Assembly: GCF_030693625.1 (NCBI RefSeq)
Contig: NZ_JAUYAF010000002.1
Coordinates: forward strand, 20,825-84,824
Length of the DNA stretch: 64,000 nt
Direction of reading: 5' to 3'
Source of the DNA: Phenylobacterium sp.
GTDB taxonomy: Bacteria > Pseudomonadota > Alphaproteobacteria > Caulobacterales > Caulobacteraceae
Shown here: piece after piece, positions 6,094-53,568 of the stretch
Position numbering within the stretch: the stretch's first letter is position 1
Layout: each line of letters begins with the position of its first letter
Program-made: the position numbers and the translations under genes
The notes under the pieces: generated by a model
Told to the model about the DNA's origin: nothing
The model's input: the letters and a program-made list of their open reading frames with translations, nothing else
Databases searched by the model: none

Positions 6094-8617
6094 CACCACC
6101 ACCGCCGATCGACGGCAGGAGCATCTGGAGCCCACGGCCGCGCGCCGGCTGTCAGGCTGGCTGAAGGGCTACAAACCCCTGACCGGCATTCCGGACGAGC
6201 TGTTCGACGCCCTGGGCCGCCCCCGCGACCACTGGCTGAGCCTGCTTGGGGACTTCGCGGAATATCCCGAGGGCGAGTTCAATAGCCGGTTTGGCCTGGC
6301 CACCCGGCACATCCGCGACACCGGGGTCTCCTACCGCATCTATGGTGAGGAGAGCGAACGCAGCTGGCCGCTTAATCCCCTGCCCCTGATCCTGGGCCAG
6401 AAGGAGTGGGGCGAGATCGCGGCTGGGGTGATCCAGCGGGCCAGGCTGATGGAAGCGCTGCTGGGCGACATCTATGGCGAGGCCAGCCTCGTCGCCGACG
6501 GCTCTATACCGGCCGCCGCCCTCACCGGCAGCATCGACTTCGTGCGCGCCATGCGTGGCGTCAGCCCTCCCGGCGGCCGTCACCTGCAGATATACGCCGC
6601 CGATCTCGGGCGGGGCCCGGACGGCCGCTGGTGGGTGCTCGACGACCGCACCCAGGCCCCCTCCGGAGCCGGCTACGCCCTGGAGAACCGGCTGGTGCTC
6701 AGCCGCGCCTATCCCACCCTCTACAACGCCATGAACGTGGAGCGGCTGGCGCCCTTCTTCGACGCGTTCCGCCGGGGCCTGGCGGCCGCCGCAGACCGCT
6801 CCGACCCCCGCATATGCCTGCTCAGCCCCGGCCCCTTCAGCGAGACCTATTTCGAGCAGGCTCACCTGGCCCGCTACCTGGGGTTCCTGCTGGTGGAGGG
6901 CGACGATCTGGTGGCCCGCGACGGCCGCGTCTATGTGCGCACCATCGCCGGGCTCAAGCGCGCCGATGTGATCCTGCGCCGCGTCGACGCCGATTTCCTC
7001 GATCCCCTTGAGCTCAACAGCGCCTCGCGCCTGGGCACGCCGGGCATGCTGGAGGCGATCCGCTCGGGCGGGGTGGTGGTGCTCAACATGCCGGGTTCCG
7101 GGGTGGCGGAGTCCAAGGCGCTGCTGGGCTTCATGCCCTTGCTGAGCCGCCGGCTGCTGGGTGAGGAGCTTCGCCTGCCCAATGTCGCCACCTGGTGGTG
7201 CGGCCAGCCGCGCGAGCGTGAGATGGTCGAGGCCAACCTCGACCGCCTGGCCATCGCCCCGGCCTTCAACGCGCGCCTCGACACCGGCGGGCTGACCCGG
7301 CCGCAGTTGGTCTCGGACCTGACGCCGGAGGCCCGCGCCATCCTGCTGGCCCAACTTCGCGACCGCCCGGGCGACTTTGTCGGGCAGGAGGTGGTGCGGC
7401 TTTCGACGATGCCGGTGCTCCGCGACGGCCGCCTCGAGCCCGCCCCCTTCGTGCTGCGGGTCTACGCAGCCTGGACGCCGGAAGGCTGGAAGGTCATGCC
7501 CGGCGGCTTCTGCCGCACCTCCGAGCGCCTGGACGTGCGCGCCATCTCCATGGGCGAAGATGCCTGCACCGCCGACGTCTGGGTGATGGACGACAAGCCG
7601 GTGGAGCGCATGACGCTGATGGCCAGCAAGGAAGAGGTGAAGGTCCGGCGGATCCTGGGGCATCTGCCCAGCCGGGCGGCGGACAACCTGTTCTGGCTCG
7701 GCCGCTATCTGGAGCGCGCGGAGGCCACCCTTCGCTTGGCCCGCAGCCTCTGCACGAGCCTGATGGATTCCGAGACCGCTCTGCACACCACCGGTGAGAC
7801 CCTGGCCTGCCTCCAGAAGCTGCTCATCGAATGGGGCGCCCTCGACGAGGAGGCGCTTGGGGCTCCGGCCCTGGAAGCGGCGCGCAACGCCCTCCACGAT
7901 CAGAAGGCCTACGGCTCGGTGATCTATCTGGTGCGCGCCGCCCAGCGCGCGGCGGCCAGCATGCGCGAGCGTCTGTCGGTGGACTTCTGGGCTCTGCTGC
8001 TGAACCTCGAGAAGGAGCTGGCGGAAGGCGCGCAGAACCCGCTGTCCGAAGCCGAAGCCCTGCAACAGATCGAAAGCGCCCTGCAGCTGGTCGCGGCCCT
8101 TTCCGGCCTGTCACAGGAAAATATGAACCGTGTGGCCGGCTGGCGGTTCTTCGATATGGGCCGCCGGATCGAACGCGGCATCAACACCTGCCGCCTGGCC
8201 CACACCCTGGCGCCCGATGAGGCCACCACCGATGACCTGGACCTCTTGCTCGACCTCGCCGACAGCCAGATCACCTACCGGGCCCGCTACCTGGTGGGCC
8301 TGGCCTTGACGCCGGTGCGCGACATGCTGCTGCTCGATCCGTACAACACCCGGTCCCTGGCCTTCCAGGCCCAGACCCTCAAGGACCACCTGGCGGTCCT
8401 GCCCTCGCTGCTGGACGACGGCATGCTGGAGGAACCCAGCCGCATCCTGCTGCCGCTGGCCACCGAGATCGAGACCGCCGACGCCCGCAACCTCACCACC
8501 GCCAAGATGCTGGCGTTCGAGCGCGCGCTCATGGACCTCTCCGGCGCGGTGGCCGACCGTTACTTCCTGCAGGGCGCCAATGCGGTCCCCACCCTGAAGC
8601 TGTCGGCCTTGGCGTGA
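6083..8617 (+). CDS. Circularly permuted ATP-grasp / alpha-E fusion protein
   Basis: The 844-residue protein combines a circularly permuted type-2 ATP-grasp ligase domain (DUF404/DUF407, about residues 1-480) with a helical alpha-E domain (DUF403, about 510-844). The alpha-E domain begins at the typical [20 protein letters not shown] segment. ATP-grasp enzymes of this group are thought to form amide bonds. In many genomes the two parts are separate genes, so this is the fused form. The start is TTG at 6083 with GAGGA about six bases upstream; it overlaps the DUF2126 gene by 11 bases, and its TGA overlaps the GTG of the next transglutaminase gene. The tight coupling marks a three-gene operon. 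Confidence 0.9.
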
Positions 8618-16002: not shown

Positions 16003-17574
16003 CTAGATCGCCCGGGCGCGGCCCTCCCAGTAGGGCGCGCGAACCTTGTTCCGCTGGATCTTGCCGGCCTCGGAACGCGGCAGGCTGGTGGCGAAGTCGA
16101 TCTGGCGGGGGATCTTGAACTTGGCCAGATTGGCGTGGGCGAAGGCCAGAATCTCCTGCTTCAGGGCCTCGCTGGGCTCATAGCCGGCCTTGAGCTGGAT
16201 CACCGCGCGAACCTCCTCGCCGCGTTCGTCGTGGGGCACGCCCACCGTGCAGGTGTCCTCGACGGCCGGGTGCTTGATCAGCTCGTTGTCCACCTCCTGC
16301 GGGTAGATATTGACCCCGCCGGCGATGATGGTCTCGGCGTTGCGGCCGGTGAGGAACAGGTAGTCGTCCTCGTCGAAATAGCCGATGTCACCCATTGTGA
16401 AATAGCCGTCGCGGCGGTTGGCCTCGGTCTTGGCGTCGTCCTTGAAGTAGTCGAATCCCCCCTGGATATCGAGGCGCATATAGATGGCGCCGGCGACACC
16501 GACAGGACATTCCTCGCCGGCCTCGTCCAGGATGCGCGCGGCGTGCGGCGCGGGCCGTTTGCCCACCGTGCCCGGCTTCCTCAGCCATTCCTCGGAGCTC
16601 ACCACAAAGCCGACGCCACCCTCGGAACCGGCGTAGTATTCGTTCAGCACCGGCCCCCACCAGGCGATGATGGCGTGTTTCACCTCGGGCGGACACGGCG
16701 CCGCGCCATGGGTGATCTTGCGCAGGGAGCTGAGGTCGTAGCGCCCCCTCACCTCCTCCGGCAGGGCCAGCAGGCGCTGGAACATGATCGGCACGAAGTG
16801 GCCCCGCGTGATCTTGAAGTCCTCGATGGTCTTCAGGACCAGTTCGGACTCCCACTTATCCATCAGCACGGTGGGCACCCCGTTGGTCAGGGCGCGGCGC
16901 ACATCTCCAGCCAGGGGCGCGGCGTGATAGGCCGGGCCGGTGCAGAGGTGGATGTCGGTCTCGCGGTCATAGGTCTTGTCATGGCCCGGCACGACCGCCT
17001 GCGGCTTGTGCACCCCCTTGGGCCGCCCGGTGGTGCCTGACGAGTAGAGCATGGTGTAGCCGCGCACAGGATCGTCGATGTCGACGGGGGAGAACCGGGC
17101 CAGGGCCGCCTCGTACCTGACGAAGCTCGGCAGGTCCCCACCGATGGCCACCTTCAGCCCCAGGTTCGGGCACTGGCCGGCCGCCGCCACCGCGGTGGCC
17201 ACATCAGCGTCGGCGAACAGGGCCTTGGCCTCGCAGTTTTCGATGATGTAGGCGATCTCGTCGGCGGTCAGGTGCCAGTTTACCGGGCTCATGCGCACCC
17301 CCACCCGCAGGGCGGCGAACAACACGTCGGCGAACTCCACCCGGTTGGAGCACAACAGGGCGATGGAGTCCCCGGGACCCAGCCCCTGCTCCCGCAGCAG
17401 GCGGGCGATCCGGTTGGCGTTGGCGTTGAGGTCAGCGAAGGTCCGCGTGCGGCCGTTCAGCTCATGGACCGCCACCTTGTCGGGCTGCACCTGCGCCCAG
17501 ACGGCGGGCGCCATCCCGACCTCGATCGCCGCGTTCAGGCGCGATTCCAGATCGCCAACCGAAGCCTGGCTCAT
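16003..17574 (-). CDS. AMP-binding acyl-CoA synthetase
   Basis: The 523-residue enzyme belongs to the acyl-adenylate-forming family: it activates a carboxylic acid with ATP and joins it to CoA. Motifs seen are YSSGTTGRPKGV (P-loop), YYAGSEGG, GYFTMGDIGYFDEDDYLFLTGR and the C-terminal catalytic-lysine region PRSEAGKIQRNKV. The second ATG of a pair (17574 rather than 17580) is preferred because GGGGAG then lies eight bases upstream. The acid used cannot be told; short- or medium-chain or aromatic acids are possible. It diverges from the giant repeat protein gene. Confidence 0.88.
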   Translation of the reverse strand: MSQASVGDLESRLNAAIEVGMAPAVWAQVQPDKVAVHELNGRTRTFADLNANANRIARLLREQGLGPGDSIALLCSNRVEFADVLFAALRVGVRMSPVNWHLTADEIAYIIENCEAKALFADADVATAVAAAGQCPNLGLKVAIGGDLPSFVRYEAALARFSPVDIDDPVRGYTMLYSSGTTGRPKGVHKPQAVVPGHDKTYDRETDIHLCTGPAYHAAPLAGDVRRALTNGVPTVLMDKWESELVLKTIEDFKITRGHFVPIMFQRLLALPEEVRGRYDLSSLRKITHGAAPCPPEVKHAIIAWWGPVLNEYYAGSEGGVGFVVSSEEWLRKPGTVGKRPAPHAARILDEAGEECPVGVAGAIYMRLDIQGGFDYFKDDAKTEANRRDGYFTMGDIGYFDEDDYLFLTGRNAETIIAGGVNIYPQEVDNELIKHPAVEDTCTVGVPHDERGEEVRAVIQLKAGYEPSEALKQEILAFAHANLAKFKIPRQIDFATSLPRSEAGKIQRNKVRAPYWEGRARAI

Positions 17575-17947
17575 ATCCATTCTCCCCGCCCGGCATTGAG
17601 CAGCCGGTTCGGCGTCATCTTCCGGAACCCTGCGCGATGACGCAACGGCAATCCGCAACCGCGGGCGATTGAACCGGACTTCGGACCGCAACCTGTCGTT
17701 GGGAAAAAACTGCGGAGGTCGGCAAATCCTGCCACGGCCAAGGCTGCGACATTCCACGTATTCGATTGTTTTTGAACGATTTCTCTCATGGCGGTCGGAC
17801 AGGCACAGCCCTTGCAACCACGGTTAACGGGCGCGGTCGCGACGCCCGCGTAAGGGCTCGCATGCAGGGACACGGCAGACAGAAGGACCGCACGGCGCGC
17901 CATGGCGCCCCTCGCCGCGTCTTGTCCGCCGGGGCGGGACCCGCAGC
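17575..17947. other. 373-base divergent intergenic region with a sigma-54-like promoter
   Basis: The region separates the acyl-CoA synthetase gene (minus) from the giant repeat-protein gene (plus). It holds an AT-rich patch around 17755-17790 and a good -24/-12 type promoter at 17802-17816. A short open frame at 17766-17951 ends over the ATG of the repeat-protein gene but has no ribosome site and unconvincing composition, so it is not called as a gene. Confidence 0.5.
17801..17816 (+). promoter_or_regulatory. Sigma-54-type promoter candidate for the octapeptide-repeat gene
   Basis: The sequence AGGCACAGCCCTTGCA matches the RpoN consensus TGGCACG-N4-TTGC(A/T) at nearly every position. The invariant GG (17802-17803) and GC (17814-17815) are exactly ten bases apart. 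Transcription would start near 17827, leaving a leader of about 120 bases. No activator site was recognised upstream. Confidence 0.5.
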
Positions 17948-20900
17948 ATGACCTCCATTGTCTCCTCCTACACCCCGGCCCAGATCGCCGGCCTGTCGCG
18001 GCAGGAACTGGAGGCCCTGACCCGCGCCGACATGGCGGCGCTGAGCTTCAGCCAGATCGGCGCCCTGACGGCGACGGGTATGGAGGCCCTGTCGGGCGAA
18101 CAGCTTCAGGCCCTGTCCACCAAGCAGGTGACCGCGCTGGCGGCCACCCAGATCCGGGCGCTGTCCACCAGTCAGATCGTCTTCAGCGCCGCCCAGCTGG
18201 CGGCGTTCAACGGGACCCAGTTCCAGGGCTTTGAAGCCGAGGACATCGCGGCCTTCACCACGACCCAGATCCGGGGCCTTACCGCTCGCGAACTCTCAGC
18301 GGCGACCGCGGACCAGGTCGACGCCTTCTCCGCCACCCAGATCGCGGCGATGAGCGCCACCCAGATCCGGGGCTTCACGGCCACCGAGGTCGCGGGTCTC
18401 GACGATCAGCAGTTCGCCGCCTTGAGCGCGGGCCAGGTGGGCGCCCTTACCCCGACCCAGATCAAGGCCCTCAGCACCACACAGGTCGCGGCGCTCAGCA
18501 CCACCCAGGTCAAGGGCCTGACCGCAGCCGGACTGGAGGCGATGACCGCCACCCAGGTCAGCGCCCTGACGCCCGAACAGATTCCCGCCATATCCGCCGG
18601 CGGCTTCCTGGGCTTCACCGGCGCCGATATCGCCAGCTTCAGCAGCGAACAGCTTGGCGCCCTGACGCCCACCCAGATGGGGCGTCTGTCGACCCCGCAG
18701 GTCCGCGGCCTGACCGCGAGCCAAGTGGCAGGCTTGGCCGACGCCCAGCTCTCCGCCGTCACCACCGCCGGGATGGCGGCCTTCACAGCCAGCCAGGCTG
18801 CGGCCTTCACCCAGGCCCAAGTCGCGGCGCTCGCCACCACCCAGATCAAGGGCCTCTCTCCGGTGGCCGTGGGCGCGCTCTCCGCCGATCAGATCGATGG
18901 CCTGTCCGCCGGCCAGATGGCGGCGCTTTCGGTGACCCAGCTGCGAGGCTTCGACGCAGCCGACACCGCCTCCCTGGACGCCGCCCAGCTCGGCGCCCTG
19001 AGCACCCTCCAGACGGGAGCTTTCAACGCCACCCAGATTCAGGCGCTGAGCCCCGAGCAGCTCGCTTCGCTCACCACGACCCAGATCAAGGGGCTCACCG
19101 CCGCCCAGATGACGGCGATGACACCGACCCAGATCGGCGCTTTCACGGTCACCCAGATTCCCGATCTGACGGTCGCCGGCCTCTCCGGCCTCACGGCGGC
19201 CAATATGGCTGGCCTGAGCACCGAGCAGTTGGGCGCCCTGAGCTCGGGCCAGATCAGCAAGCTATCGGCCATGCAGGTGCGCGGGCTGACGGCGACCCAG
19301 ATTCCCGCCCTGGCCGACACCCAACTGGCCGCGCTGACCGCCGGCGGGATGGCGGGGCTCACCCCCACCCAGGTGGCGGCGTTCAGCGAAACCCAGATCG
19401 CGGCCCTGACCACCACCCAGGTCCGGGGCCTGTCAGCCGCCGCCGTCGGCGCCCTGTCCGAAGCCCAGGTCCAGGCCATGTCGGTGAGCCAGGTCGGGGC
19501 GCTCACCGCCACCCAAGTGCGGGGCCTGACGGCCACCGGGGCCGGCGCCCTGACCTCAGACCAGTTGGCGGCGCTGAGCAGCGTCCAGGTGGCCAACCTT
19601 TCGGTCACGGCGATCACCAGCCTGACCGAGACAGATATAGGCGCCCTGACGACCACCCAGGTGCGAGCCCTTAGCGCTGGCCAGATCGGCAGCCTCTCCC
19701 CCACCCAGGCGGCCGGCCTACAGGTGACCCAGCTCGCCATGCTGAGCGCACTGCAGATGAAGGGTATCGCGGCCGCCGACCTGAGCACCCTGACCGCCGA
19801 GCAGATGGCGGCCTTCTCCACCACCCAGATCGCGGCGCTTGGCGCGGGCCAAGTCCAGGCCCTGACCTCCGCCCAGGTGGCCGGTCTGAGCACCACCCAG
19901 GTGGGTGGCATGGCGGCCACTCAGATCGCCGCCTTCACCTCCGCCCAGGTCGAGGCCCTGGCCTCCACCCAGCTCGCCGCCATGACACCGGGCGCTTTCA
20001 CGGGCCTCACCGCCACCAATATGGCCCAGCTGCGCACCGAACAGCTGGGAGCGCTCACCATCACTCAGATCACCAGGCTGTCGGTCTCGCAGCTCCAGGC
20101 CCTGGGCGACACCCAGATCGCTGGCCTGGCCGACACCCAGCTCACCGCCCTGACGGCCCCGGAACTGGCGTCCCTGTCGGGAACCCAGGTGGCGGCCTTC
20201 ACCCAGCAGCAGATCGCGGCGCTAACCACCACCCAAATCCGCGGCCTCACCGCCACCAGCCTCGGCTCGTTGACGCCTGAGCAGATCGGCGCGCTGTCGA
20301 GCACCCAGCTTCAGGCCCTCACCACCGCCCAGCTCAAGGGGTTCACCACCACCGAGGCGGCGTCCCTGACCACTGCCCAGTTCGCCGCCCTGTCGGAGAC
20401 CCAGGTGGCGGCCCTGTCGGCCAACGTCATCGGCGGCTTGACCCTCGACGAGGTGGCGGGCCTGAGCACCAGCCACCTGGCGGGCCTGTCCACGGCTCAG
20501 GTGGGGGCGCTGTCGGAGGAGCAGGTCGCGGTCCTGTCGACCACCCAGCTCGGCGCCCTGGGCGCCACCCAGATGCGAGGCCTGACCAGCGAGGCCCTGG
20601 CGGCCCTCACCGCCAGTCAGTTCGCCACCTTCTCGGCCACTCAGATGGCGGCCCTGACCGCCAACCAGATCAGGGGCTTCACCGGCGACGAGATCGACGA
20701 CATGACGTCCGAGCAGCTGGCCGGCCTCACGGCGGCGCAGCTCACCGGCCTTTCGGCCACGGCCATGGCGGCCCTGTCCACCACCGACGTCGCGGCGCTG
20801 ACCGCCACCCAGATCAAGGGCTTGGCGGCCACCACACTGGCGGCCTTCTCTTCGGAGCAGCTCGGGGCGCTATCGACCACCCAGATCCAGACCTTGAGCG

Positions 20901-23698
20901 TCGCCCAGGTCAGGGCGTTCACCCAGGAACAGGCCGGAGCCCTCACCACCGACCAGATCGCGGCCCTGCACACCACCCAGGTGGCGGCCCTGAGCACGAC
21001 GGCCCTCGCCGGCCTCACCCCCGGGGACATCGCGGGCCTGGCCCCCACCCAGATCGGGGCGATGGTGGCCGCCCAGATTCAAGCCTTGTCCGGCGATCAG
21101 ATCCAGGCCCTGACCACCACCCAGATCGCGGGCTTCACCGCCCTCCAGCTCAAGGGCCTCACCGCCACCTCCCTGGGCGCCCTCAGCGTCTCCCAGTTCG
21201 CCGCCCTCTCGGCTAGCCAGATCGGTTCCCTGACCTCGGCCGCCATCGGCGGGTTGAGCGTCGAGCAGGTCGAGGCCCTGACCACCACCCAGCTGGACGC
21301 CTTCAAGACCACCGGGATCGCCGGCTTCACTGACGCCCAGGTCGCCGCCATGAGCGAGGCGCAGATTGCCAGCCTGGAAGCCAGCCAGATCGGCGCCCTG
21401 ACCACCACGGCGATGGCCGGCCTGACCGCCGCCGAGATCGGAGCCCTGACGGACAGCCAGATCGCCGCCCTGTCGGCCACGCAGCTGGCGGCGCTCTCGG
21501 CCGAGCAGCTGCAGGGCTTCTCGGCCTCGCAGCTGGACAACCTGACCACCAGGCAGGTGGCGGGCCTCAACGCCACCAACCTCGGCGCCCTCTCCAATGA
21601 GCAGATCGCCGCCCTGACGCCCTCGCAGATCGCGGCGCTCAGCGCTACGGCGGTGGGCGGCCTGACCCCGACGCAGGTCGCGGCCCTGACCGACACCCAG
21701 ATTGACGCCCTGAAGGCGGCCAGCGTCGGCGGCCTGACCTCGACCCAGGTGGCGGCCATGACTGACGGGCAGATCGCCGGGCTGGCGGCGACGCAGATCG
21801 CCGCGCTCAGCGCCAGCGCGGTCACGGGCCTGAGCGCCGCAGATATCGGCGCGCTCACCACGACCCAGGTCGCCGCGCTCAGCGCCACCCAGATGGGCGC
21901 CCTGTCGGACGATCAGGTCGACGGGTTCGACGCCACACAGCTTCGCGGCCTGAGCGCCAAGCAGATCGCCGGACTGTCCACCACAGCCATCTCGGGCCTG
22001 GCGCCGGAGAGTGTCGCAGCCTTCACCACCACCCAGGTCTCGGCCCTGGCCGCCACCCAGGTCGCCGCCCTGACCGCCGCGGATGTGCAGGCCATGACGG
22101 CCGCCCAGATCGCGGCCCTGTCGGTCTCAGGGGTCGCCGGGCTGGCCGACACCCAGGTGGCCGCCCTGAACGCCACCCAGATGGCGGCCTTCACCCCCAC
22201 CGAGATCGCCGCCTTGACCGCCACAGCGGTCTCGGGGCTGACGGCCACCCAGATCGCCGGACTCTCGAAGGAACAGTTGGCTGCGATGACCCCGGGTCAG
22301 ATCGCCGCCATCTCCACCACCAGCATCGTCGGCCTCACCCCCACCGAGATCGCGGGCCTCAGCCTCACCCAGTTCGGCAGCCTGACCCCCACCCAGGTGG
22401 GAGCCTTCACCCCCACTCAGGTGGCGTCGCTGACCGCGGCCCAGGTGGCGGCCCTGACGCCGGCTGAGGTCGGCGGCTTGACCCCGACCCACATCGCGGC
22501 CCTGACCCCGACCCAGTTCGCCGCCCTCAGCCCCACCCAGCTGGCCGCCATGTCGACGACGGGCATCACCGGCCTGACCTCGACCGAGATCGCGGGCCTG
22601 ACGAGGACCCAGCTCACCAGCTTCACCGCCACCCAGATCGGCGCCCTGACCTCGACCCAGTTCGCGACGCTGAGCCAGACCCAGCTCGCCGACCTGACGG
22701 CCACCGAGATCAGTGGCCTGACCGCCACCCACGTCGCCAGCCTGACTCCCACCCAGATCGCGGCGATGACCACCACCCATATCGCGGCCCTGTCGGCGAG
22801 CGGCGTGTCGGGCCTGACCGCCGATCAGATCCCGGCCCTGTCGGCGACCCAGATCGCCGCCTTCACCGCCACCGAGGTCGCCGCCCTTTCGGCCGGCGCC
22901 ATCTCCGGCCTGTCGACCGAGGACATCACCGGCCTGACCTCGACCCAGTTCGCGGCCCTGACGCCGGAACAGGTCCGCGCGCTCTCCACCACCCAGGTGG
23001 CGGGGCTGGGGACCACCCAGGTCGGCCTGTTGGACGCCTCGGACGTGCGCAGCCTGACGCCCACCCAGATCGCGGCCCTGACCTCCACCGGGTTCGCCGC
23101 GCTGACCCCGACCCAGATCCAGGCCCTGTCGGCCGCCGGGATCACCGGCCTGACCGAGGAACAGATCACCCAGATGACCCTGACCCAGCTCGGCGGCCTG
23201 ACCACCGAGCAGATCGGGGCGCTCACCACCACGGAAATCGGCTATCTCACCGCCGCCGGACTGGCGGCCATGACGGTCACCCAGCTCAGCGGCCTGGTGC
23301 GAATGCAGCTGCGGGCCTTGAGTGAGAGCCAGTTCGATGCGCTGACCGAGACCCAGGTGGCCTCCTTCAGCGGGACCCAGATCGCCAACCTGGAGTCCAC
23401 CGACCTCAACAGCTTCGAACCCACCCAGTTCGAGGCCCTGACCTCGACCCAGGTGGGATCGCTGACACCTACCCAGCTCAACAGCCTGAACGCGACGATG
23501 ATGTCGTCCTTCACGGACCGGCAGCTGGTGGGCCTGACCGTCACCCAGGTGGCTAGCCTCTCGATCACCAGCATCAGCGCCCTGACGCCCCGCGAACTGA
23601 TGGCCCTGAACGGCACCCAGATCGACGCCTTCACCCCGACCCAGATGGCCAGCATCACGCCCGAGCAGTTGGCCGCCATGCAGGCCGGTTCGTCCTGA
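17948..23698 (+). CDS. Giant protein made of 238 octapeptide repeats, unknown function
   Basis: The 1916-residue protein parses completely as MTSIVSS, 238 units of eight residues (one, residues 72-78, has seven) and MQAGSS. The consensus unit is L-(T/S)-x-T-Q-(I/V)-x-(A/G). Position 1 is almost always Leu, Phe, Met or Ile, and position 5 is Gln in about 70% of units; the others carry Asp, Glu, Gly, Ala, Asn or Ser there, often as two neighbouring units. There is no cysteine or tryptophan and very little charge. No signal peptide, membrane helix or anchor is seen. The (T/S)-x-x-Q spacing resembles helix capping, so short helices stacked as a solenoid are one possibility; a beta-solenoid with two or three units per turn is another. 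A structural, adhesive or surface role is a guess. The start is ATG 17948 with only weak GGGAC upstream. Confidence 0.9.
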   Translation: MTSIVSSYTPAQIAGLSRQELEALTRADMAALSFSQIGALTATGMEALSGEQLQALSTKQVTALAATQIRALSTSQIVFSAAQLAAFNGTQFQGFEAEDIAAFTTTQIRGLTARELSAATADQVDAFSATQIAAMSATQIRGFTATEVAGLDDQQFAALSAGQVGALTPTQIKALSTTQVAALSTTQVKGLTAAGLEAMTATQVSALTPEQIPAISAGGFLGFTGADIASFSSEQLGALTPTQMGRLSTPQVRGLTASQVAGLADAQLSAVTTAGMAAFTASQAAAFTQAQVAALATTQIKGLSPVAVGALSADQIDGLSAGQMAALSVTQLRGFDAADTASLDAAQLGALSTLQTGAFNATQIQALSPEQLASLTTTQIKGLTAAQMTAMTPTQIGAFTVTQIPDLTVAGLSGLTAANMAGLSTEQLGALSSGQISKLSAMQVRGLTATQIPALADTQLAALTAGGMAGLTPTQVAAFSETQIAALTTTQVRGLSAAAVGALSEAQVQAMSVSQVGALTATQVRGLTATGAGALTSDQLAALSSVQVANLSVTAITSLTETDIGALTTTQVRALSAGQIGSLSPTQAAGLQVTQLAMLSALQMKGIAAADLSTLTAEQMAAFSTTQIAALGAGQVQALTSAQVAGLSTTQVGGMAATQIAAFTSAQVEALASTQLAAMTPGAFTGLTATNMAQLRTEQLGALTITQITRLSVSQLQALGDTQIAGLADTQLTALTAPELASLSGTQVAAFTQQQIAALTTTQIRGLTATSLGSLTPEQIGALSSTQLQALTTAQLKGFTTTEAASLTTAQFAALSETQVAALSANVIGGLTLDEVAGLSTSHLAGLSTAQVGALSEEQVAVLSTTQLGALGATQMRGLTSEALAALTASQFATFSATQMAALTANQIRGFTGDEIDDMTSEQLAGLTAAQLTGLSATAMAALSTTDVAALTATQIKGLAATTLAAFSSEQLGALSTTQIQTLSVAQVRAFTQEQAGALTTDQIAALHTTQVAALSTTALAGLTPGDIAGLAPTQIGAMVAAQIQALSGDQIQALTTTQIAGFTALQLKGLTATSLGALSVSQFAALSASQIGSLTSAAIGGLSVEQVEALTTTQLDAFKTTGIAGFTDAQVAAMSEAQIASLEASQIGALTTTAMAGLTAAEIGALTDSQIAALSATQLAALSAEQLQGFSASQLDNLTTRQVAGLNATNLGALSNEQIAALTPSQIAALSATAVGGLTPTQVAALTDTQIDALKAASVGGLTSTQVAAMTDGQIAGLAATQIAALSASAVTGLSAADIGALTTTQVAALSATQMGALSDDQVDGFDATQLRGLSAKQIAGLSTTAISGLAPESVAAFTTTQVSALAATQVAALTAADVQAMTAAQIAALSVSGVAGLADTQVAALNATQMAAFTPTEIAALTATAVSGLTATQIAGLSKEQLAAMTPGQIAAISTTSIVGLTPTEIAGLSLTQFGSLTPTQVGAFTPTQVASLTAAQVAALTPAEVGGLTPTHIAALTPTQFAALSPTQLAAMSTTGITGLTSTEIAGLTRTQLTSFTATQIGALTSTQFATLSQTQLADLTATEISGLTATHVASLTPTQIAAMTTTHIAALSASGVSGLTADQIPALSATQIAAFTATEVAALSAGAISGLSTEDITGLTSTQFAALTPEQVRALSTTQVAGLGTTQVGLLDASDVRSLTPTQIAALTSTGFAALTPTQIQALSAAGITGLTEEQITQMTLTQLGGLTTEQIGALTTTEIGYLTAAGLAAMTVTQLSGLVRMQLRALSESQFDALTETQVASFSGTQIANLESTDLNSFEPTQFEALTSTQVGSLTPTQLNSLNATMMSSFTDRQLVGLTVTQVASLSITSISALTPRELMALNGTQIDAFTPTQMASITPEQLAAMQAGSS
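17969..23677 (+). repeat. 24-base / 8-residue tandem repeat array with a 34-unit super-period
   Basis: The array contains 238 diverged 24-base units in one frame. Irregular units recur at a fixed distance. Pairs or groups starting at 19166, 19982 and 20798 (LTVAGLSG/LTAANMAG/LSTEQLGA and counterparts) are each 816 bases, or 34 units, apart. Other markers repeat with the same spacing: units 65/99/133, 69/103/137 and 76/110/144. The earliest copy (from 18590) is only 24 units before the next, as if ten units were lost or later added. The pattern fades in the last third. Confidence 0.85.
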
Positions 23699-42525: not shown

Positions 42526-42736
42526 GGTCCCCATGCCGACGCGAACTGTTATCGCGATTCCTAGCACGCGGGCCTTGCCAAAACCCAAATCCCTGGCAGC
42601 GGCCGATCGTCCGGGTGGGAGATTCGCCCATCAGGCGAGCGCTGCGCAAGCTTGACCCAGGGACGGCGGCGCATGCGGAGGGTGGCCGCCGGTTCTGCTG
42701 GCGCATCGACCGGGCTTAGGGTAGCCGGGAAGGCCG

Positions 42737-43462
42737 ATGTCCAGACAGCCGCATGACGAACAGGCGCTCGACGCCGATGACGCCATCCTGGCCTTCGACG
42801 ACGTGTCGATGCGCTACGGTCGCGGGCCGGAGACGTTGAAAGACCTGACTTTTTCCCTGGAACCCGGCTCCTTCCATTTCCTCACCGGGGCTTCCGGGGC
42901 GGGCAAGAGTTCGCTGCTGAAGCTGATCTATCTGGCCGCCAAGCCCTCCAAGGGCCTGATGCACCTGTTTGGCCAGGACGTGTCGACGGTCCCTCCCAAG
43001 CAGCAGCCGATGCTGCGGCGGCGGATCGGGGTGGTGTTCCAGGAATTTCGCCTGCTCGACCACATGAGCGCCTTCGACAACGTCGCCCTGCCCCTGCGCA
43101 TCGCCGGTCGCAAGCCCGACAGCTACCGGCAGGACGTCGCCGAACTGCTGGCCTGGGTGGGTCTGCGCAGCCGCATGCACGCCATGCCCGCGACCCTGGC
43201 CGGAGGCGAGAAGCAGAGGCTGGCGATCGCGCGCGCGGTGGTCAATCGCCCCGACATCCTGCTGGCCGATGAACCGACGGGGAATGTCGATCATGAGATG
43301 GGCCTGCGCATCCTGCGCCTGTTCGTGGAGCTGAACCGCCTGGGCACCACTGTGCTGATCGCCACCCACGACCAGGATCTGGTGGCGCGGTCGGGCAAGC
43401 CGGTTCTGCACCTGGAGGACGGCCGCCTGACTCAGCTGGGCCCCATCGGAGGCGCGTCATGA
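42737..43462 (+). CDS. ftsE: Cell division ATP-binding protein
   Basis: The 241-residue ABC ATPase works with FtsX at the division site, where it controls peptidoglycan hydrolases. Walker A reads GASGAGKSS, the signature [14 protein letters not shown] and Walker [13 protein letters not shown], followed by the switch histidine in IATHDQDL. The N-terminus has about 20 extra acidic residues. Its end overlaps the ftsX start (ATGA). Confidence 0.95.
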
Positions 43463-52167: not shown

Positions 52168-53568
52168 ATGAACATCCAACACCTGCGCCCCCTGCTGCTG
52201 ATCGCGGCGGCGGCCCCCCTCGCCGGCTGCGGCGCCCTGAGCGGCGCGGCCCACGTCGCCACCGGCCTAACCAGCCACCAGCTCTGCTCGGCCACCTTCG
52301 TCTCGGGCCTCGACCCGCAGGTCATCCGCCGCGAGGCGATCGATCCGGACCTGGGCCCGGCGCATTTCCTGGTCCGCCACGACGTCGACCGGGCCAACCG
52401 CGCCGTGACCGCGAGCCTGGCGGGCTTCGCGCCCAGCCGCGCCGTCCATCGCGGCGCCGCGGGCTGCCTGGTGCTGCGCGGCGCAGCCCCGCCGCCTCCG
52501 CCGACAAGACCCGCCATCACCGCTCCGGTCCCCCCCCCCCTGGAGACCGCCGCGACGTCACCCGCCATCGAGGCCGCCCTGGACCGCGCCTTCGCCGAGC
52601 CGGCCCGGCCGGCCCTGCGACAGACCAAGGCCGTCGTGATCCTGCACCGGGGCAGGATCGTCGGCGAACGCTACGCGGCCGGCTATGGGGTCGATACGCC
52701 GATCACGGGCTGGTCCATGACCAAGTCGGTGACCAACGCCCTGCTGGGGGTGCTGGTGGCCCAGGGCAAGGTCTCGGTGCAGGGGCCCGCCCCCGTGGCC
52801 GCCTGGGCCGCCCCGAGCGACCCTCGCCACGCAATCTCCATCGACAACCTGTTGCGGATGAACAGCGGCCTGGCCCTGGGCCAGTCCCTCACCGCCAGCC
52901 CCTGGAGCGCCTTCGACCCCTCGGCCCGGATCTTGTTCGCCGAGCGGGACAAGGCGCGAGCCGCCGTCGCCGCGCCCTTGAAGGCGGTGCCCGGAACCGA
53001 CTGGACCTATGCCGACGCCAGCACGCTGATCCTCTCGCGCATCCTCCGCGACCAGGCCGGCGGCGACCAGGCCGGCGGCGACCAGGACGCTCTGCTGGCC
53101 TTCGCTCACCGCGACCTGTTCGACAGGCTGGGCCTGGAGCACGCCACCCTGGAGCTGGACGCCACCGGCACGCCGCTGGGCTCCACGCACATGTGGGCCA
53201 GCGCCCGGGACTGGGCGCGGCTGGGGCAGCTCTATCTCGATGACGGCAAGGTCAGGGGAGAGCAGATCCTGCCCAAGGGTTGGGCGGACTATTCCGCCCG
53301 CCCGACCGTCGGCAGCGAGGCCGTGGGCTATGGCGCCGGCTTTTGGACCAATCGGGGGTCGGGAGAGGGGGTGCGGCGGCGTATCGCCTGGGGCATGCCG
53401 GCCGACGCCTTCATGGCCCGCGGCCACCACGGCCAGTACGTGATCGTGGTCCCCTCGGCCCGGCTGGTGGTGGTGCGGCTAGGGACCACCCCCACCCCGA
53501 CCAGCGACATGGAGACCGTGGCCCGGCTGGTGGGCGAGGTCATCGCCGCCACGTCTGCGCCGAACTAG
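52168..53568 (+). CDS. Serine hydrolase / class C beta-lactamase-like lipoprotein
   Basis: The 466-residue protein has a lipoprotein signal ending in LAGC (about residue 21). A small N-terminal domain (about 25-110) and a Pro-rich linker (about 110-125) lead to a beta-lactamase/penicillin-binding-like domain. The nucleophile motif is SMTK (S-x-x-K), the second motif TYADAS corresponds to YxN/YxS, and the third is ARGHHGQYV (HHG instead of KTG). This group is usually esterase or peptidase rather than a true beta-lactamase. Two features stand out: an 11-C run encodes the linker, and two 15-base repeats at 53050-53079 encode DQAGG twice. Start ATG 52168, GGAG eight bases upstream. Confidence 0.88.
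   Translation: MNIQHLRPLLLIAAAAPLAGCGALSGAAHVATGLTSHQLCSATFVSGLDPQVIRREAIDPDLGPAHFLVRHDVDRANRAVTASLAGFAPSRAVHRGAAGCLVLRGAAPPPPPTRPAITAPVPPPLETAATSPAIEAALDRAFAEPARPALRQTKAVVILHRGRIVGERYAAGYGVDTPITGWSMTKSVTNALLGVLVAQGKVSVQGPAPVAAWAAPSDPRHAISIDNLLRMNSGLALGQSLTASPWSAFDPSARILFAERDKARAAVAAPLKAVPGTDWTYADASTLILSRILRDQAGGDQAGGDQDALLAFAHRDLFDRLGLEHATLELDATGTPLGSTHMWASARDWARLGQLYLDDGKVRGEQILPKGWADYSARPTVGSEAVGYGAGFWTNRGSGEGVRRRIAWGMPADAFMARGHHGQYVIVVPSARLVVVRLGTTPTPTSDMETVARLVGEVIAATSAPN
52530..52540 (+). repeat. Run of eleven C inside the serine hydrolase gene
   Basis: The homopolymer falls in the Pro-rich linker (VPPPL) between the lipoprotein N-terminal part and the hydrolase domain. Slippage by one base would cut off the catalytic domain, so this is a possible on/off site or a sequencing-error site. 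The present length keeps the frame open. Confidence 0.85.

Follow-up and report, generated by a model that had tools for sequence, protein, structure and literature searches.

A 238-octad ALTTAQ repeat protein of Phenylobacterium and the putative glycosylation and export of its family as screw-like rods

A reading frame of Phenylobacterium sp. that consists almost wholly of octapeptide codons raises the question of which family such a protein belongs to, how it may fold, and where it may act. The frame lies in a window of 64,000 nucleotides (the whole stretch of DNA that was analysed) and encodes 1,916 amino acids from its ATG to its stop codon, which divide without remainder into a start of seven residues, 238 octads, of which only the ninth has seven residues, and an end of six residues, in agreement with the pure eight-residue array described in the original prediction. 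The features referred to below are as follows:

17948..23698, + strand: PF20080 ALTTAQ repeat protein, 238 octads, 1,916 aa (Pfam match and gapless orthologues)
17948..17968, + strand: seven-residue start MTSIVSS (start codon position common to two orthologues)
18161..18181, + strand: seven-residue octad LSTSQIV, residues 72–78 (octad division)
18422..19141, + strand: 30 octads modelled by AF2 (mean pLDDT 94.9)
23678..23695, + strand: six-residue end MQAGSS (identical in the orthologues L038 and L039)

Among the 238 octads, position 1 is L, F, M, or I in 235, position 2 is T or S in 198, position 4 is T in 118, position 5 is Q in 165, position 6 is I, V, L, M, or F in 231, and position 8 is A or G in 196. 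The protein contains neither cysteine nor tryptophan, and it has 467 serine and threonine, 110 acidic (D+E), and 42 basic (K+R) residues; as had been claimed, no signal or anchor is visible on reading the sequence. Because the DNA tandem-repeat rows within the array are only 60–90% matched (62–63% for the two longest), the array is not the product of a recent DNA duplication.

The array had been said to fit no solenoid family that could be named, and a profile search had been set beforehand as the test that could refute this. The search matched the ALTTAQ repeat, PF20080, a model of 38 residues, in 70 stretches with an E-value of 3.8e-248 and 801.3 bits against a cut-off of 26.4, which refutes the claim of an unnamed family; since the protein belongs to PF20080, the argument for novelty of the family fails, and the window protein is a new member of an already named family. 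The PF20080 match carried no function. The HeliScrew4 chain (PDB 9zem) likewise matches the window protein in phmmer searches (E 9e-16 and 4e-16), in an alignment spanning 108 residues with octads of the L-T/S-x-x-Q/K-I type, and is thus made of the same type of repeat, but it differs in its length of 120 residues and in being apparently designed, to judge from its name. Four further Pfam models exceeded their cut-offs (LRR_EndoS, 75.8 bits; CAAP1, 73.3; DUF4351, 26.7; SAM_3, 25.4) and were set aside as leucine-pattern or low-complexity matches, far under 801 bits. Leucine-rich repeat proteins turned up weakly in the PDB sequence search, and an NCBIfam search returned nothing credible for the window protein. 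No paper was found on the ALTTAQ repeat or on HeliScrew4 by name.

The expectation of loosely named relatives in other alphaproteobacteria proved correct, some of them being recorded as "heme utilization protein" or "ICE nucleation protein". The plasmid collection holds 57 matching records, and both of these names occur, together with "hypothetical protein", among the 40 plasmid matches listed. Three arrays are found in the same genome as the window: that of the window itself on contig C38, one on C40 in an open frame of 2,499, and one on C82 in an open frame of 812. Counting this genome in each case, arrays occur in 11 of 60 near relatives (36 genomes of the genus and 24 of the order), 10 of them above the family cut-off; PF20080 is patchy in the class (6 of 385 genomes), and arrays were detected in 25 of 398 genomes of the phylum. 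In genomes of family f198 (loci L163–L175), open frames reach 6,436 aa, one genome holds 779 candidate stretches, and some of the giant arrays have type I secretion system (T1SS) genes directly upstream. No record of the phage collection matches the array. Foldseek matched the array model to the viral protein A0A6J7X2V1, from an uncultured phage of the Caudovirales, with 42% of 108 aligned columns identical, which suggests that similar octads may occur in phages.

The window array is a real, conserved gene. Two orthologues from Phenylobacterium metagenome-assembled genomes (MAGs; loci L038 and L039), both from a single genome-contig scan with an atypical segment as query that returned five loci, align with it along its full length of 1,916 aa and need no gaps (identities of 82.5 and 83.1%), and dN/dS values of 0.22 and 0.23, respectively, indicate purifying selection on the array. 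The three genes start with ATG, TTG, and GTG at one shared position, and the seven-residue octad has seven residues in both orthologues; a site like it, LTPSQISFSAAQ, is present in the relative G031. Octad number and order are fixed in three genomes, and the array is therefore unlike a freely expanding repeat. Downstream of the array, the contigs of the window, L038, and L039 are collinear over the compared stretch. An AMP-ligase gene upstream of the window array (16003–17817) is absent from that place in the contigs of L038 and L039, which appears to be a local insertion or loss. The neighbours of the window array encode this AMP-ligase, a GntR regulator, a tetrapyrrole methylase, and a molybdopterin oxidoreductase; tblastn queries for GT41 glycosyltransferase, array-type T1SS, and flagellar genes found none by the array within the 64 kb, the closest T1SS-like match in the window being an ABC protein at 33% identity (42734–43444). 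In G031, a window-type array (L026, contig C10) is split over two frames near its 3' end, at about 8168–8219, and this is either an assembly error or a decayed copy.

Structure prediction bears out the suggestion of a solenoid of short helices, at about one five-residue helix per octad. In the AF2 model of 30 octads, for which eight window segments served as the alignment, 29 helices of at least four residues, mostly of five, are predicted, and the same helix pattern is predicted for the N-terminal 250 aa (pLDDT 85.4; five models, 69.8–85.4), except that one helix, at the seven-residue octad (residues 66–74), is longer and that the chain is looser around residues 206–224. Such a model is compatible with helix capping by the T/S residues. 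A known solved fold was sought and rejected: TM-scores to the query did not exceed 0.36 among the best 50 of 412 matches in a PDB library ending on 8 April 2026, where mesothelin occupied the top rows, nor 0.34 among the matches listed for viral models. The designed-looking 9zem, which this library may not contain, was not among these best 50 of 412.

The net charge of the window array recurs with a period of 3.42 octads, a strength reached by none of 1,000 shuffles, and the two halves of the array give periods of 3.405 (0/1,000 shuffles) and 3.435 (1/1,000). The same period is widely shared: in 27 of 28 arrays, a set that includes four near-copies (24 arrays without them) and some arrays cut by contig ends, the strongest net-charge period lies at 3.36–3.48, and in 26 of these 27 it exceeds all 100 shuffles. 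This set omits L108 (G200) and L162 (G612), which have 13–15 octads in larger frames, as well as L024, L030, L033, L037, L041, and arrays fetched later; the only array within it to depart from this range, G010a, peaks at 4.33. The phase difference between basic and acidic residues averages −177 degrees (R 0.77, n = 28), the basic phase being taken at the acid period as sought within 3.30–3.56, and acidic and basic stripes thus lie mostly on opposite faces across the arrays. Taken by themselves, the basic residues are significantly periodic in 17 of the 28 arrays, including G261c, where the basic stripe is near the acidic one. Single features may fall off this period, for example G at position 8 in the window array (4.87) and acidic residues in the Cereibacter array (4.84), and basic residues alone peak at 6–8 in several arrays. 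From the charge pattern we infer that one period corresponds to one turn of the solenoid, which would take up about 27 residues and carry charge on two opposite faces.

The paralogous array on C40 is followed by a gene for a TPR-containing GT41 glycosyltransferase (Pfam Glyco_transf_41, E 3.1e-82), the order being FlbT and FlaF upstream of the array and then the GT41, an FkbM methyltransferase, a UXS-like epimerase, and flagellins. GT41 enzymes in general are widespread, being present in all 30 genomes of the genus that were tested and in 118 of the 385 of the class, but those close to the C40 enzyme occur together with arrays. An identity of 59% or more to that enzyme is reached by a GT41 in 9 of the 10 near relatives whose arrays exceed the cut-off and in none of the other 50, all further matches lying at 43% or below; within the genus, this amounts to 9 of 10 array genomes vs. 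0 of 26 array-free genomes (Fisher 1e-7, kinship not corrected). Similarly, the three best matches outside the own genome among the 385 class genomes (683–780 bits, 50–52% identity; the next at 402 bits) come from G261, G329, and G234, all among the five further genomes of this sample that have arrays, and the GT41 gene is next to the array in G261 and 4–6 kb from it in G234 and G329. In the reverse direction, 1 of the 29 class-sample GT41 loci outside the own genome (that of G261) has an array within 1.5 kb, and 26 of the 29 have neither an array within this distance nor a PF20080 match in the genome. In plasmids, a GT41 gene is present in the fetched flank of 12 of 20 loci and absent from 8, the 20 having been chosen by hand from the 57 records and including the near-copies L032/L036, L128/L129, and L035/L134. 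The TPR proteins adjoining arrays in Pseudomonas and in a betaproteobacterial MAG are also GT41 enzymes. Among the 15 of 25 array genomes of the phylum sample that were read, GT41 genes were seen near the array in four (of the clade described below in G772 and G754, of other kinds in G473 and G531), and none was seen near the array in the other 11; within the genus, seven of the arrays read, as well as L038 and L039, had no GT41 in their fetched flanks.

Most of the enzymes encoded beside arrays belong to a single clade. In a tree of 71 enzymes, 30 array-neighbour GT41s from Alpha-, Beta-, and Gammaproteobacteria form one branch (SH-aLRT 100), outside which fall 36 unlinked enzymes, 4 more distant ones, and the G473 enzyme; the linked label was assigned by hand from the gene neighbourhood, and the unlinked enzymes, which were selected for their resemblance to the one from Phenylobacterium, are not a random sample of GT41. 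A first tree of 55 enzymes gave the same split (28 array neighbours, 27 others), and the enzymes of G772 and G754, found later, fell within the clade. The near-copies L017/L028 and L128/L129 were kept in the trees as linked, and L036 (a copy of L032), six re-fetched copies, and L143 (for which the chosen frame is not a GT41) were omitted. When two rows from one G531 frame were added, the clade remained with a support of 84, and the G473 and G531 enzymes grouped outside it; in total, 30 of 32 array-neighbour GT41 reading frames belong to the clade, the exceptions being G473 and G531 (both f198). In G531 (L177, contig C92), a frame of 2,032 aa about 2 kb from a giant array contains at least two GT41 stretches and a partial further match. 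Nine other strong GT41s of the genus (L148–L156; eight from array-free genomes and one from G031) lie outside the array clade, and a GT41 on contig C74 of the own genome resembles them.

In the PDB, the kin of the array-linked enzyme are the OGT 110 kDa subunit (E 1.4e-99) and XcOGT (E 6e-85), and one His and one Lys, which we take to be catalytic, match in the aligned stretch shown. The content of potential acceptor residues also differs with linkage: serine and threonine at octad positions 2–4 have a median of 2.02 per octad in linked vs. 1.65 in unlinked arrays (14 vs. 14, p 0.0007; after thinning, 12 vs. 12, p 0.004). The window array has 1.67, as in the unlinked set; the lowest value, 1.00, is that of G022, which has an array and no clade GT41, and the unlinked L042 has a high value of 2.26.

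T1SS genes (ABC and HlyD) are found by the arrays of Cereibacter, Pseudoroseomonas, two Pseudomonas, the betaproteobacterial MAG, G234, G329, and G772, and by those of the f198 genomes G468, G473, G503, and G506; in a fifth f198 genome, G477, HlyD is the only one of these genes in view. Judged by neighbour genes, relatives in other genera would qualify as T1SS substrates and the window copy would not. A peptidase C39 domain is absent from both array-linked ABC proteins tested. The C-termini of arrays read by eye end in AALFL (Cereibacter), SALFL (Pseudoroseomonas), NALFM (G234), and NSLFL (G329), and ends of this type are a possible C-terminal signal. Flagellar genes, in turn, lie by the arrays of C40, G026, G017, Pseudorhizobium, Rhizobium 11515TR, and Rhodovastum, and no locus with both T1SS and flagellar genes was seen among those read. 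Neither kind of gene was detected in the fetched flanks of the GT41-linked Phenylobacterium loci L019, L022, L024, L025, and L029 or of the linked loci L102, L124, L125, L128, L129, and L159. An array-linked T1SS was sought in Phenylobacterium and not found; the best genus match to the array-linked ABC protein (261 bits, 32%) is in the array-free G034, and the genus appears to be without close kin of this protein. On the Cereibacter plasmids (L032, L036), the array-GT41-T1SS block adjoins rfbA, a KDO-8-phosphate synthase gene, and two sulfotransferase genes, which suggests that the block is part of a surface-polysaccharide island.

Taken as a whole, these observations are best explained, at a probability of about 0.53, by a family of glycosylated, exported, screw-like rods. 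Each octad would form one short helix and about 3.42 octads (27 residues) one turn, so that the 238 octads of the window protein would make about 70 screw turns with an acidic stripe on one face and a basic stripe on the opposite face. The Ser/Thr-rich octads would be made in the cytoplasm and O-glycosylated there by the OGT-like GT41, mostly of one clade, that is encoded beside the array in many lineages; the rod would then leave the cell through a type I secretion system encoded nearby, the flagellar apparatus being a possible route in some lineages, and rods may pack side by side through their opposite charge stripes into a surface or matrix layer. Because no glycosyltransferase or secretion gene lies near the window copy, its glycosylation and export would be an extrapolation from its relatives, the nearest candidate partner being the GT41 by the C40 paralogue.

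The main rival concerns the window copy itself, which shares the octad, period, and stripes of the linked arrays but has the Ser/Thr content of unlinked ones. It may stay in the cytoplasm as an unglycosylated rod or scaffold, for example a ruler or a solenoid that binds other proteins, with glycosylation and export confined to the GT41-linked paralogues; we consider this possible, if doubtful. The missing adjacent GT41 and export genes, the 1.67 Ser/Thr per octad, and the constant length in three genomes speak for it, but the octad, the 3.42 period, and the opposite stripes are common to the window and linked arrays, and the linked GT41 on C40 in the same genome could act in trans. A second reading places the enzyme and not the array in question, the adjacency being co-residence in glycan islands in which the target of the GT41 is flagellin or some other protein. 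Some of the same islands do carry sulfotransferases, UXS, FkbM, and flagellins, and the f198 array-neighbour GT41s are of another lineage; it is nonetheless unlikely, given one clade across three classes whose adjacency is kept in differing islands and the absence of the clade GT41 from all 26 array-free genus genomes.

A third reading, in which the arrays are glycoproteins associated with the flagellum and leave the cell through its export apparatus, appears quite improbable. The position of the C40 paralogue between FlbT-FlaF and GT41-FkbM-UXS-flagellins, like pieces in G026 and G017, and the flagellar genes in Pseudorhizobium, Rhizobium 11515TR, and Rhodovastum favour it, but no flagellar query matched in five other linked Phenylobacterium loci, T1SS genes take this place in eight linked loci from other genera, and the window copy is not in a flagellar locus. 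A role in ice nucleation or heme uptake, taken from the annotations of plasmid homologues, is scarcely credible, as the AF2 model consists entirely of short helices and is not a beta-solenoid. In addition, neither the Pfam ice-nucleation repeat (presumably PF00818) nor the TPS/haemagglutination domain (presumably PF05860) is among the seven families that the Pfam search listed at E-values of up to 10, and the ice-nucleation and heme/TPS exoprotein labels were rejected.

The glycosylated, exported rod has partial parallels among known systems. The HMW1 adhesin is beta-helical, and serine-rich repeat proteins are Gram-positive, depend on other enzymes and another export system, and are not known to contain an octad solenoid. 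HMW1C, a GT41 member that modifies HMW1 before export, resembles the proposed system in being a cytoplasmic partner of a large exported protein, but its modification is N-linked, an AAD domain replaces the TPRs, and export is by two-partner secretion (PMC3983070). FlmG of Caulobacter combines TPRs with a glycosyltransferase and, while still in the cytoplasm, attaches O-linked sugars to a filament protein that is then exported, with the difference that its substrate is flagellin (PMC7591256); the more distant GT41s of Phenylobacterium, outside the array clade, may be given the putative label FlmG-like. The Ser/Thr repeats of serine-rich repeat proteins are O-glycosylated and exported by a dedicated system, the accessory Sec, and in both respects resemble the proposed rod (PMC6973325). 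Among glycosylated exported repeat proteins, what would set this system apart is its clade of GT41 enzymes, together with a charge period that most of the arrays have in common. The array, its names, the GT41 pairing, the export neighbours, and the 3.4-octad period are absent from the papers searched, which were mostly open-access and included no bioRxiv preprints. Only tentatively can it be proposed that these elements make up an unrecognised glycosylation-export system, in which 3.4-octad screws, served by a dedicated GT41 clade and by T1SS or flagellar export, would pack through their stripes into sugar-coated surface sheets.

To our knowledge, few bacterial OGT relatives have known targets, and an OGT-like clade tied to one repeat would provide a concrete enzyme-substrate pair; if true, the pairing would explain a family that is now filed under misleading names. 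With one predicted helix per octad and a regular charge pattern, the rod would for these reasons be a natural template for designed screws. Within this family, the window array counts as conserved yet unlinked. On the minus strand of 17948–23698, several long antisense open reading frames of up to 293 aa are present, which are probably by-products of a repetitive GC-rich array and not genes, and elsewhere in the window a perfect 15-bp tandem repeat of 2.6 copies occurs at 53048–53086.
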